From assembly GCF_001718695.1 (NCBI RefSeq), contig NZ_CP013420.1, positions 1,860,001-1,924,000 of the forward strand: a stretch of 64,000 nucleotides of DNA, given 5' to 3'. Below the pieces are notes generated by a model. It made no database searches. It saw nothing but the letters and a program-made list of their open reading frames with translations, and was not told where the DNA came from. Of this stretch, positions 1-40,427 are shown one piece after another (the stretch's first letter is position 1; the number at the start of each line of letters is the position of its first letter). A program made the position numbers and the translations under genes. The DNA is from Burkholderia ubonensis (GTDB lineage Bacteria; Pseudomonadota; Gammaproteobacteria; Burkholderiales; Burkholderiaceae).

Positions 1-282
<282 letters not shown>

Positions 283-36556: not shown

Positions 36557-37126
36557 TTACGCAAACGAATAAAACACGCGGAACGCAACCTTGCGCTCGG
36601 CCCAGAACTCGGCCGCTTCGCGGAACACGTCGAGCAGCGTCTCGCGGCCTTCCTTGTCGAACTTCTGCGCGATCGGCAGCCCTTCGAGCACGATCACGAA
36701 ACCCGGCTGCGCGCCCGCCTTCGCGACGAGATCGGTCAGGCAGTCGTACAGCGCATCATAGTTCTTGCCGAAATGCTTCGGAAACAGGAACGACGTCGCG
36801 ATCGTTTCCATCACTTCCTGCTTCGACTGCGCGGCGCCGCAATACGCATACAGGAAATGCTGGCCGAGCCGGCCGGCTTCGTCGGCGAGATCCTGCACGC
36901 GAAACGCGCGAATCGACTGCACGAGATTGGGTCGCACGGTCGTGAAAAGGCTCATAGGCTCCTCGTTCGATGAAAGCCCGGGGCTGGCTTCCTGCTCTGC
37001 CGGCGCGTCGCCGGCCTGCACCGCCGCGCGCAGCTGCATCACGCGCTGAAACAGATTGCCGTCGCCGGCCGCGAACAGATCCGCCGCCGACGACGCCGTG
37101 TCGTGCGTGTAGATGGAGTCGCTCAT
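36557..37126 (-). CDS. Barstar-family ribonuclease inhibitor
   Basis: This is the probable cytosolic inhibitor of the RNase encoded 16 nt upstream. The barstar fold lies in about residues 85-189: FRVQDLADEAGRLGQHFLYAYC, then FPKHFGKNYDALYDCLTDL (the helix that plugs the barnase active site) and GFVIVLEGLP. The total is 189 residues against about 90 in classical barstar. The first 57 residues keep high third-position GC and look coding. An internal ATG at 36955 (residue 58) has a much stronger ribosome site, GAGGAGCCT, and would give a 132-residue form. Confidence 0.88.
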   Translation of the reverse strand: MSDSIYTHDTASSAADLFAAGDGNLFQRVMQLRAAVQAGDAPAEQEASPGLSSNEEPMSLFTTVRPNLVQSIRAFRVQDLADEAGRLGQHFLYAYCGAAQSKQEVMETIATSFLFPKHFGKNYDALYDCLTDLVAKAGAQPGFVIVLEGLPIAQKFDKEGRETLLDVFREAAEFWAERKVAFRVFYSFA

Positions 37127-37142
37127 GCCGTTCATCCCGAAG

Positions 37143-37574
37143 TCATTCAACAATACGTTTGAAACTGTTGTAGTGGTCGTCCGTGTAATAACAGTTGTCG
37201 ACCCGGCGCAGCGGCCCGCCGCAGACGATCCGGCGCGCGCCTCGATTGCGCGCGCGCGGGGTCGGCACGGTGTACTCGTGGTAGAAGCCGCGCTTCGCCT
37301 TCGGCAGGATCCGCTCGCGGTTGCCGAACACGACGCCGTCTTTCTCGTACGGATAGGGACCGCCACCGGCAATCAGGCCGAGCGTGGTCACGGCCTCGCG
37401 CGGAAGGCGGGCGGTCGGGATCGTATCGAACCCGCCGGCGGCCACGTCGGCCGCAACGGCCTGCCGTGCGTAGGCGGCGGAAACCAGACTGCCCGTCGGC
37501 GTGCCGACGATACCCATCGCGAACATCGCGAAGACGGACGCGAGCGCGCCGTTGCGGAGCCACTTGCGTGCCAT
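37143..37574 (-). CDS. Secreted barnase-like guanyl-specific ribonuclease
   Basis: This is an N1/T1/barnase-superfamily RNase of 143 residues. A signal peptide is evident (ALASVFAMFAMGIVGTPTGSLVSAAYA, probable cleavage near residue 37). The catalytic domain has LPREAVTTLGLIAGGGPYPYEKDGVVFGNRE, then GFYHEYTVPTP with the general base E100, RGARRIV with R114/R115, and DDHYNSF with the general acid H134; all barnase-type catalytic positions are present. Cys118 and Cys128 may form a disulfide. The downstream barstar gene protects the producer before export. Confidence 0.92.
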   Translation of the reverse strand: MARKWLRNGALASVFAMFAMGIVGTPTGSLVSAAYARQAVAADVAAGGFDTIPTARLPREAVTTLGLIAGGGPYPYEKDGVVFGNRERILPKAKRGFYHEYTVPTPRARNRGARRIVCGGPLRRVDNCYYTDDHYNSFKRIVE

Positions 37575-37751
37575 GAACCAGGGTTCCCGCTGTTAAATCA
37601 AGTAGTTGACGACCAATAAAAGCGTTAGCGTAGCGCTATTGTCCGCGCGAATCAATGTTCGTTTGGGGATTGAAAGCCTGACCGGATCAGGCCCCGGGCA
37701 AATCTTACCGAAATATGGTTACTTTTATCTTACATGCGATAAAATGCCGAC

Positions 37752-37885
37752 GGCATCTCTCGCATGGCAAGACCCTGCCTCCTTGCTACGCTCGCAACCC
37801 GGAGTGGAGAGATGCTGCTGTTGCTTATGGGAAGCGCATGCGCGCCCTGCCCGGCGGCGTGCCCATTGCGGGCACGCCTCTTTTT
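37752..37885 (+). ncRNA. Candidate small RNA in the RNase-maeB gap
   Basis: The 376-bp gap 37575-37950 has no protein gene that I can support, yet contains a + strand promoter-like element (TTACTT at 37719, TAAAAT at 37740, 15-bp spacing) and an orphan + strand terminator. The predicted RNA would fold as a 9-bp stem (37753-37761 with 37807-37815) enclosing a hairpin (37767-37771 with 37782-37786) that exposes CCTGCCTC from the anti-Shine-Dalgarno-like CCTCCTT at 37778-37784. Both flanking genes are on the minus strand, so this cannot be their leader. It may belong to a known family I cannot name. Confidence 0.5.
37856..37885 (+). terminator. Orphan intrinsic terminator
   Basis: A 9-bp stem GGCGTGCCC/GGGCACGCC with a 5-nt loop is followed by TCTTTTT on the + strand only. 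It fits the end of the candidate small RNA. Confidence 0.8.
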
Positions 37886-37950
37886 GCCTTTGTTGACAAT
37901 TTCATCTGCTGTGCCGCGCCGGTTCGACCGGGCGGCACCCGCGTGTTGGC

Positions 37951-40251
37951 TCAGCGCGACGCGTTCACGTCGGCCACCAGCAGCGCGGCCATGTTGACGA
38001 TCCGGCGCACCGTCGCCGATTCGGTCAGCACGTGCACCGGCTGCGCGGCGCCGAGCAGGATCGGCCCGATCGCGATGTTGTTGCCCGCGGCCGTCTTCAG
38101 CAGGTTGTACGCGATGTTCGCGGCGTCGATGTTCGGCAGGACCAGCAGGTTCGCTTCGCCTTCCAGCGTCGATTCCGGCAGGATTTCCTTGCGCAGCGCC
38201 GCGTCGAGCGCGACGTCGCCGTGCATTTCGCCGTCGACCTTCAGGTCCGGCGCGCGTTCCTGCAGGATCGCGAGCGTATCGCGCATCTTCTGCGCGGACG
38301 GCGCGTTGCTCGTGCCGAAATTCGAGTGCGACAGCAGCGCGACCTTCGGCTCGATGCCGAAGCGGCGCACTTCCTCCGCCGCCATGATCGTGATCTCGGC
38401 GAGCTGTTCCGGGGTCGGATCGACGTTCACGTGCGTGTCGACGAGGAAGATCTGCCGGCCCGGCAGCACGAGGCCGTTCATCGCCGCGTACACGCTGCAG
38501 CCCGGGCGCTTGCCGATCACCTGGTCGATGAAGTGCAGGTGGCGGTGCGTCGTGCTGATCGTGCCGCAGATCATCCCGTCCGCTTCGCCCTTCTTCACGA
38601 GCATCGAGCCGATCAGCGTCGTGCGGCGGCGCATCTCGACGCGCGCGAGCTGCTCGCTGATGCCCTTGCGGGCCATCATCTTCGCGTAGTCCTGCCAGAA
38701 CTCGCGGTAGCGCTCGTCGTGCTCGGTGTTGACGACGGTGTAGTCGACGCCCGGCGTCAGGCGCAGGCCGTAGCGCTGGATACGGTGCTCGATCACGGCC
38801 GGACGGCCGATCAGGATCGGTTTCGCGAGCTTTTCGTCGACGACGATCTGAACGGCGCGCAGCACGCGCTCTTCCTCGCCTTCCGCGAACACGACGCGCT
38901 TCTTCTCGGCCGGCACGCTGCGCGCGAGCTGGAAGATCGGCTTCATCGTCGTGCCGCTGTGGTACACGAACTGCTGCAGGTGCTGCTTGTACGCGTCCAT
39001 GTCCTCGATCGCGCGCGTCGCGACGCCGCCGTCCATCGCGGCCTGCGCGACGGCCGGCGCAATCTTCACGATCAGGCGCGGATCGAACGGCTTCGGAATC
39101 AGGTATTCGGGGCCGAACGACAGGTCCTGGATCCCGTACGCGGTCGCGACGATGTCGCTCTGCTCCTGCTGCGCGAGCTCGGCGATCGCGTTGACGGCGG
39201 CGATCTCCATTTCACGCGTGATCGTCGTCGCGCCGACGTCGAGCGCGCCGCGGAAGATGAACGGGAAGCACAGGACGTTGTTGACCTGGTTCGGATAATC
39301 GGTGCGGCCGGTCGCGAGCACGGCGTCCGGGCGCACTTCGAGCGCGAGCTCCGGCAGGATTTCCGGCGTCGGGTTCGCGAGCGCGAGGATCAGCGGGCGC
39401 TCGGCCATCCCCTTGACCATCTCCTGCTTCAGCACGCCGGCCGCCGACAGGCCGAGGAAGATGTCCGCGCCGTCGATCACCTCGGCGAGCGTGCGCGCGT
39501 CGGTTTCGCGCGCGAAACGCTCCTTGTCCGGGTCCATCAGCTCGGTGCGGCCCTTGTAGACCACGCCGGCCAGGTCGGTCACCGTGATGTTCTCGAGCGG
39601 CAGGCCGATGTCGACCAGCAGGTCGAGACACGCGAGGGCGGCCGCACCCGCGCCGGACGCGACGAGCTTGACCTCCTTGATGTTCTTGCCGACCACCTTC
39701 AGGCCGTTCGTGACGGCCGCGGCGACGACGATCGCGGTGCCGTGCTGGTCGTCGTGGAAGACCGGGATCTTCATCCGCTTGCGGGCTTCGCGCTCGACGA
39801 TGAAGCAATCCGGCGCCTTGATGTCTTCCAGGTTGATCCCGCCGAAGGTCGGCTCGAGCGCGGCGATCACGTCGACGAGCTTGTGCGGATCGGACTCGTT
39901 CAGCTCGATGTCGAACACGTCGATGCCGGCGAACTTCTTGAACAGCACGGCCTTGCCTTCCATCACCGGCTTCGACGCGAGCGGGCCGATGTTGCCGAGG
40001 CCGAGCACCGCGGTGCCGTTCGTGACGACGCCGACCAGGTTGCTGCGCGCGGTGAAGCGGGCCGCGTTGAGCGGATTCTCGACGATCTCCTCGCACGCGA
40101 ACGCGACGCCCGGCGAATAGGCGAGCGCCAGGTCGCGCTGGTTGATCATCTGCTTGGTCGGCGCAATCGCGACCTTGCCGGGGGTCGGGAATTCGTGGTA
40201 ATCGAGGGCGGCTTCGCGGAGCTTGGCTTTGGAGGAGGCTTGCGTGGACAT
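37951..40251 (-). CDS. maeB: NADP-dependent malic enzyme (MaeB type)
   Basis: This enzyme decarboxylates malate to pyruvate with NADP. At 766 residues it is the two-domain form. The malic enzyme domain covers about residues 1-430 (YSPGVAFACEEI, NGTAVLGLGNIGPLASKPVMEGKAVLFKKFAGIDVFDIE, HDDQHGTAIVVAAA, ASGAGAAALACLDLL). A phosphotransacetylase-like C-terminal half follows (VFAEGEEERVLRAVQ, GSMLVKKGEADGMICG, LSHSNFGTSN), which in MaeB is regulatory and binds acetyl-CoA. The start MSTQASS at 40251 is divergent from thiL. Confidence 0.95.
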   Translation of the reverse strand: MSTQASSKAKLREAALDYHEFPTPGKVAIAPTKQMINQRDLALAYSPGVAFACEEIVENPLNAARFTARSNLVGVVTNGTAVLGLGNIGPLASKPVMEGKAVLFKKFAGIDVFDIELNESDPHKLVDVIAALEPTFGGINLEDIKAPDCFIVEREARKRMKIPVFHDDQHGTAIVVAAAVTNGLKVVGKNIKEVKLVASGAGAAALACLDLLVDIGLPLENITVTDLAGVVYKGRTELMDPDKERFARETDARTLAEVIDGADIFLGLSAAGVLKQEMVKGMAERPLILALANPTPEILPELALEVRPDAVLATGRTDYPNQVNNVLCFPFIFRGALDVGATTITREMEIAAVNAIAELAQQEQSDIVATAYGIQDLSFGPEYLIPKPFDPRLIVKIAPAVAQAAMDGGVATRAIEDMDAYKQHLQQFVYHSGTTMKPIFQLARSVPAEKKRVVFAEGEEERVLRAVQIVVDEKLAKPILIGRPAVIEHRIQRYGLRLTPGVDYTVVNTEHDERYREFWQDYAKMMARKGISEQLARVEMRRRTTLIGSMLVKKGEADGMICGTISTTHRHLHFIDQVIGKRPGCSVYAAMNGLVLPGRQIFLVDTHVNVDPTPEQLAEITIMAAEEVRRFGIEPKVALLSHSNFGTSNAPSAQKMRDTLAILQERAPDLKVDGEMHGDVALDAALRKEILPESTLEGEANLLVLPNIDAANIAYNLLKTAAGNNIAIGPILLGAAQPVHVLTESATVRRIVNMAALLVADVNASR

Positions 40252-40427
40252 GTGTCTCGTGGCGTGCGGATTAGAATACCTAGTCGACCATTGTAGCGCC
40301 AATCGAAGTCGCCAAAACCTCCATTCAGGTGCAACAGTCGCGACAAAATTGTACTGAACGGTGCAGGAGCGCCGCCGTTCGCCTCGTACAATGTGCCGTT
40401 CTCTCAACCGCTTCGGGTCCGTCCGCC

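Follow-up and report, generated by a model that had tools for sequence, protein, structure and literature searches.

The window analyzed here is a 64,000-nucleotide stretch of the Burkholderia ubonensis genome (C1:1860001-1924000 of 6.68 Mb in three contigs). The locus under study is an intergenic region with a barnase-type RNase gene on one side and maeB on the other. An initial sequence-only reading had placed a plus-strand element between these two minus-strand genes, and the coordinates hold. The element is real, with coordinates, stem, inner hairpin, and terminator all present, and the locus probably holds a folded, stand-alone, non-coding RNA gene. Its parts and neighbors are as follows.

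Within 36557-37123: barstar-domain frame (PF01337), which comes after the barnase-type RNase gene
37143-37574, minus strand: barnase-type ribonuclease gene (PF00545), flanking and divergent from the sRNA
37724-37743, no strand assigned: candidate operator, a TTTATC-N8-GATAAA palindrome that overlaps the -10-like element
37740-37745, plus strand: -10-like element TAAAAT, near-invariant in 54 species
37750-37885, plus strand: probable sRNA gene of ~136 nt, marked by synteny across the genus and by covariation
37751-37761, plus strand: 5' arm of stem P1, pairing with 37807-37817 (11/11 pairs changed on both sides)
37765-37788, plus strand: hairpin P2 with the anti-Shine-Dalgarno loop (6/7 pairs changed on both sides)
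37776-37782, plus strand: UGCCUCC motif, of which UGCCUC is unpaired and the last C closes the stem
37789-37806, plus strand: hairpin P3 of the three-way junction (5/5 pairs changed on both sides)
37807-37817, plus strand: 3' arm of stem P1, found by covariation
37829-37852, plus strand: hairpin P4 (5/7 pairs changed on both sides)
37856-37885, plus strand: intrinsic terminator and U tract, found by terminator scan and covariation
37951-40254, minus strand: maeB-type malic enzyme gene (malic domains and a phosphotransacetylase domain; start codon inferred), convergent with the sRNA

The architecture is a three-way junction of P1, P2, and P3, followed by the further hairpin P4 and the terminator. 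The 9-bp stem originally described consists of nine contiguous pairs, GCATCTCTC/GAGAGATGC (37753-37761 with 37807-37815), and proves to belong to a stem of 11 pairs, with the inner hairpin present at 37765-37788. The intrinsic terminator has 9 bp and 5 loop bases (37856-37878), followed by TCTTTTT up to 37885. A terminator scan found two, against a mean of 1.6 in shuffled sequences, a count that alone is not above chance; the terminator stem is retained across species, with two-sided changes in 3 of the 9 pairs. The 167-base stretch has a predicted folding energy of -69.4 kcal/mol (z = -3.57), and none of 200 shuffles is as low. The P4 loop is C/U-rich in related genera, not in this species, and the RNA has one match in its own genome.

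Several observations concern the surroundings. The leader/promoter region of the RNase gene (37575-37680) is near-invariant in 54 Burkholderia intergenic regions, is better conserved than the sRNA itself, and is in part retained in other genera. An RNase P gene is cut by the window edge (window positions 1-281), ~37 kb from the sRNA, and a copy of the double-hairpin sRNA RF02278 lies near it, ~1 kb left of the window (genome G000, C1:1858955-1859016). The closest match in the region of the sRNA locus is to genome G063, at 96% identity.

The promoter-like element proposed upstream stands in part: the -10-like TAAAAT is conserved, but it is weak by consensus, and a sigma-70 scan of 37000-38700 found no promoter. 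The RNA start is predicted from the sequence to fall near 37750-37752. Overlapping this element, a perfect dyad is found in 63 of 85 intergenic regions, always with a spacer of 8 (6 to 10 were allowed), and is missing in perfect form from the other 22; the same search succeeds in 21 of 17,200 mononucleotide-shuffled regions. The arms read TTTATC/GATAAA at 59 sites and TTTAGC/GCTAAA at 5, and the exact TTTATC-N8-GATAAA occurs once in the genome. Because the two arms change together between species, the sequence suggests that the dyad is bound by a dimeric DNA-binding protein.

We searched 65 genomes of the genus by DNA and obtained matches in 55; one of these (in G014) covers fewer than 40 bases, leaving 54 real matches, all of which sit between the RNase gene and maeB. 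In the 11 diverged genomes, the RNase gene was located by protein and the region was read up to maeB, with genome G024 as a positive control. The loop motif is shared by these loci; their stems differ, and in most of them so does the terminator stem. Since all 11 genomes lacking a long DNA match hold a diverged form of the RNA, it is present at the same site in 65 of the 65 genus genomes searched, 54 by DNA match and 11 by synteny.

Matches extend beyond the genus. A family-level search of 299 genomes matched 85, of which 47 lie outside the genus, and 20 of these 47 loci were fetched, picked from matches over the terminator. All 20 are located between the RNase gene and maeB, and TGCCTCC is found in 10: 3/3 in g13 (Trinickia), 6/6 in g25 (another genus), and 1/11 in g20 (Paraburkholderia-type). 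The ten motif-less g20 loci (L060-L065, L067, L068, L070, and L073) retain the terminator and mostly a P4-like hairpin, with a different 5' part; CCCC is frequent in their P4 loops. Named genomes were also scanned with a pattern that required the motif and is therefore biased; this returned 33 records from Burkholderia, Paraburkholderia (three: humisilvae, solisilvae, and rhizosphaerae), and Trinickia (two). As these three Paraburkholderia records carry the motif and most g20 loci do not, Paraburkholderia is mixed.

The distribution limits drawn from the fetched loci hold when 38 chosen genomes are searched more sensitively with the model: E values are below 1e-19 in 5/5 genomes of g13 and g25 and ~1e-8 in 2/2 of g20; in the other 31, no E value is better than 1e-6. 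Misses in a search of 399 genomes of the taxonomic order mean little, because the filters were strict and eight candidates per genome were scored among the matches listed. That search gave two matches outside the family (G578 and G335), the two that were followed up among matches with E between 1e-6 and 0.01; no RNase or maeB match lies in the ~3 kb around either, and we read both as terminator look-alikes rather than true homologues.

Conservation of the stems had been named at the outset as a check on the element, and the result favors a folded RNA: covariation among the paired bases is strong, and no unpaired stretch is as well conserved as the anti-Shine-Dalgarno loop. We built a covariance model from 15 sequences, taking the structure from the window's own predicted fold, and used it to align 74 sequences, comprising 65 from the genus (L026 included) and nine of the ten motif-bearing sequences from other genera (L076 omitted). 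In this alignment, which leans towards the structure because it was fitted to it and because the structure came from one of its members, 30 of 39 pairs are changed on both sides. Cells with a change on both sides number 213, against 40.2 (SD 5.4) in shuffles, and 96.9% of cells are paired, against 40.2 to 54.6% in six slid versions; none of 500 shuffles is as high on any of five covariation measures. In a plain alignment of 36 sequences that was made without reference to structure, the consensus fold has 15 pairs, of which 9 show changes on both sides; P2 and the terminator covary here too.

The sequence-only reading had put CCTCCTT in the loop region of the hairpin. Its first four bases are indeed unpaired, but the following CUU forms the 3' side of the stem, since the loop is ACCCUGCCUC. 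TGCCTCC is exact in 64 of the 65 genus regions, which were chosen without reference to the motif, and GCCTCC is found in all 65; the control for the former gave TGCCTCC in 146 of 3,250 mononucleotide-shuffled regions. Among columns of the 74-sequence alignment with at most 30% gaps, alignment ends omitted, UGCCUC is the sole invariant unpaired run (99 to 100%), and unpaired columns at or above 90% comprise UGCCUC plus three single bases. The motif falls within a hairpin loop in 67 of 74 separately computed minimum-energy folds, a set assembled from motif-bearing sequences (L076 included, L026 not), and the remaining seven show otherwise. Within the genus the motif is altered in L026 (genome G012) alone, where it reads CGCCTCC; this sequence also has a mismatched terminator pair and is perhaps a decaying copy.

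On structure and conservation, the locus has the marks of a stand-alone structured RNA gene with an intrinsic terminator and a conserved unpaired seed. Covarying pairs, the conserved loop, and the lack of an Rfam match support the original view of a small RNA with an anti-Shine-Dalgarno loop. In rhizobia, NfeR1 uses anti-Shine-Dalgarno loops to silence by pairing at ribosome sites (PMC10746234), and for Bordetella S17, direct repression of a target and regions complementary to ribosome sites are described (PMC11722255). Because the loop carries the anti-Shine-Dalgarno core and similar RNAs occur in rhizobia, probably in Bordetella, and in the RF02278 copies of this same genome, we favor, on the strength of its anatomy, a trans-acting sRNA that blocks Shine-Dalgarno sites as the most likely function, making it a probable translational repressor. 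In this model the RNA would have a promoter of its own, possibly controlled by a protein that recognizes the 20-bp dyad, and Hfq or another RNA chaperone might bind the U-tail. Pairing would begin at the loop, which folding predicts to be accessible, with (A)GGAGGCA-like Shine-Dalgarno sites in mRNAs from other loci; opening of the neighboring CUU in the stem could lengthen the duplex. Such a duplex would block ribosome entry and thereby reduce translation of several mRNAs.

An exact-pattern target search (AGGAGGCA 2 to 8 bases before ATG) gave no convincing target. The pattern AGGAGGCA-N(2-8)-ATG occurs at 13 exact sites in the genome. For three of the 13 genes (L162, L169, and L171), G059 holds a close homologue with the site, 83 to 94% identical, a count that has no background rate. 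In G021, again with no background rate, none of the 13 has a close homologue with the site, and there is one distant match at 27% identity. The comparison covered the 26 of 29 sites in G059 and G021 that gave a frame of at least 25 amino acids; three were dropped.

That no convincing target emerged would also suit a structured RNA working mainly by protein binding, in which the UGCCUC loop would be what the protein recognizes and not a seed for pairing. The fold, branched and strongly maintained, points the same way, as most pairing sRNAs need less elaborate folds than this. However, the invariant loop holds CCUC(C) of the anti-Shine-Dalgarno core, as do the pairing seeds of known families, and further C/U-rich loops appear in P4 of related genera; we therefore consider a mainly protein-binding role unlikely.

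Less probable still is a cis-acting element, either one exerting convergent antisense control over the maeB 3' end or one controlling the divergent RNase/barstar genes. The constant position between these neighbors, in every genus genome searched and in all 20 fetched loci of other genera, is what such an element would predict. Yet the conserved feature is the loop, in which we see no complementarity to either start region, and its pairing with those regions is no better than in shuffled sequence: 176 of 200 shuffles pair as well with the RNase start region, and 136 of 200 with that of maeB. Control of the neighbors by loop pairing is rejected on these numbers, and RNase and maeB are not predicted as targets. 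Further, no shared transcript needs the fold, because maeB converges on the element and the RNase gene diverges from it. It is very improbable that the locus holds no regulatory RNA but mere remnants of a promoter with a terminator, or a gene for a short peptide. Open frames do cross the element, but covariation extends to P1, P2, and P3, away from the terminator. In the 74 sequences, moreover, the three frames are stop-free in just 47, 52, and 63, and every motif-to-terminator spacing from 74 to 85 occurs, so that a coding function is rejected and, as initially claimed, no protein gene explains the terminator.

A trans-acting repressor fits into a wider picture that we offer as speculation. 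The locus may define a genus-wide RNA family, so far undescribed, in which a branched scaffold presents a single invariant anti-Shine-Dalgarno loop and which is switched by a dedicated palindrome-binding regulator. Such an RNA may broadly brake translation of mRNAs with strong Shine-Dalgarno sites rather than of a few targets, and most Paraburkholderia-type loci may have rewired the 5' part and kept the 3' part, so that targeting changed. Its fixed site in all Burkholderia genomes examined, its compensated stems, and its constant loop make the RNA a probable core regulator in these bacteria. A covariance model derived from it can be checked against existing Burkholderia RNA-seq and Hfq data, and the Paraburkholderia-type loci that have the 3' part and lack the loop offer a natural experiment on seed change in an sRNA.

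A literature search found no description of a family with this conserved loop. In three Burkholderia sRNA surveys, the RNA is not identifiable in the main-text tables; longer lists are in the supplements, so the transcript may already be listed there under a number. Table 1 in the main text of PMC5688073 has no entry that can be equated with it. One entry there, ncS54, is a 128-nt RNA at 1179680-1179807 of J2315 chromosome 1. The position of BCAL1277 in J2315 (1388805-1390997; PMC4603805) and the assignment of BCAL1261 as a carAB gene (PMC10175445) place ncS54 only ~0.2 Mb from carAB. The best carA match lies ~650 to 785 kb from our RNA in six relatives. It is unlikely that ncS54 is this RNA, and J2315 may be rearranged. 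Table 2 of PMC4035088 gives RNase P at 1381221-1381634 and, besides RNase P, has no entry between 1139475 and 1603625 of that chromosome, the relevant interval if gene order is the same. Similarly, for B. pseudomallei, with RNase P at 3481314-3481770 (Table 2 of PMC3521395), Table 3 of that paper has no validated sRNA less than 300 kb from RNase P, again assuming the same gene order.

Rfam and 6S RNA had both been named as checks on novelty. The locus has no Rfam match, whether the gathering score or E values up to 10 are used as the limit. 6S RNA is comparable in its long interrupted stem and similar size class, but the single 6S match (RF00013) of this genome lies ~1.3 Mb away, at C1:3228591-3228772, and none is found at the locus. 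The RNA, absent from Rfam, constitutes a new RNA family within a class already known.

Among characterized RNAs, MtvR of Burkholderia cenocepacia is likewise a Burkholderia sRNA of 136 nt. MtvR homologues are described as restricted to the B. cepacia complex (PMC4046987), whereas the present RNA occurs throughout the 65 genus genomes and in other genera; the distinction drawn here is one of distribution. The RF02278 "Betaproteobacteria toxic" double-hairpin sRNAs, which include ncS27/bdhR1 and others of Burkholderia and to which Bordetella S17 is related, are also Burkholderiales RNAs with CUCC-type anti-Shine-Dalgarno motifs and an intrinsic terminator. This genome has six RF02278 matches elsewhere, four of them over the cut-off, and these RNAs carry GTCTCCTCC motifs. 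The RF02278 model spans 64 positions, with GUCUCCUCC-type motifs and several copies per genome; in contrast, the RNA described here is ~136 nt long, is branched, carries UGCCUCC, and has one match in its own genome, and membership is rejected since the Rfam search gave no RF02278 match at the locus. The alpha-r14 or cuckoo RNAs of Alphaproteobacteria, which include NfeR1, have three hairpins, each with an unpaired CCUCCUCCC (PMC10746234). Our RNA has one UGCCUCC loop in a three-way junction and is not a member of that group, but it resembles these RNAs in combining a conserved anti-Shine-Dalgarno loop with freely varying stems (PMC10746234, PMC7143759).
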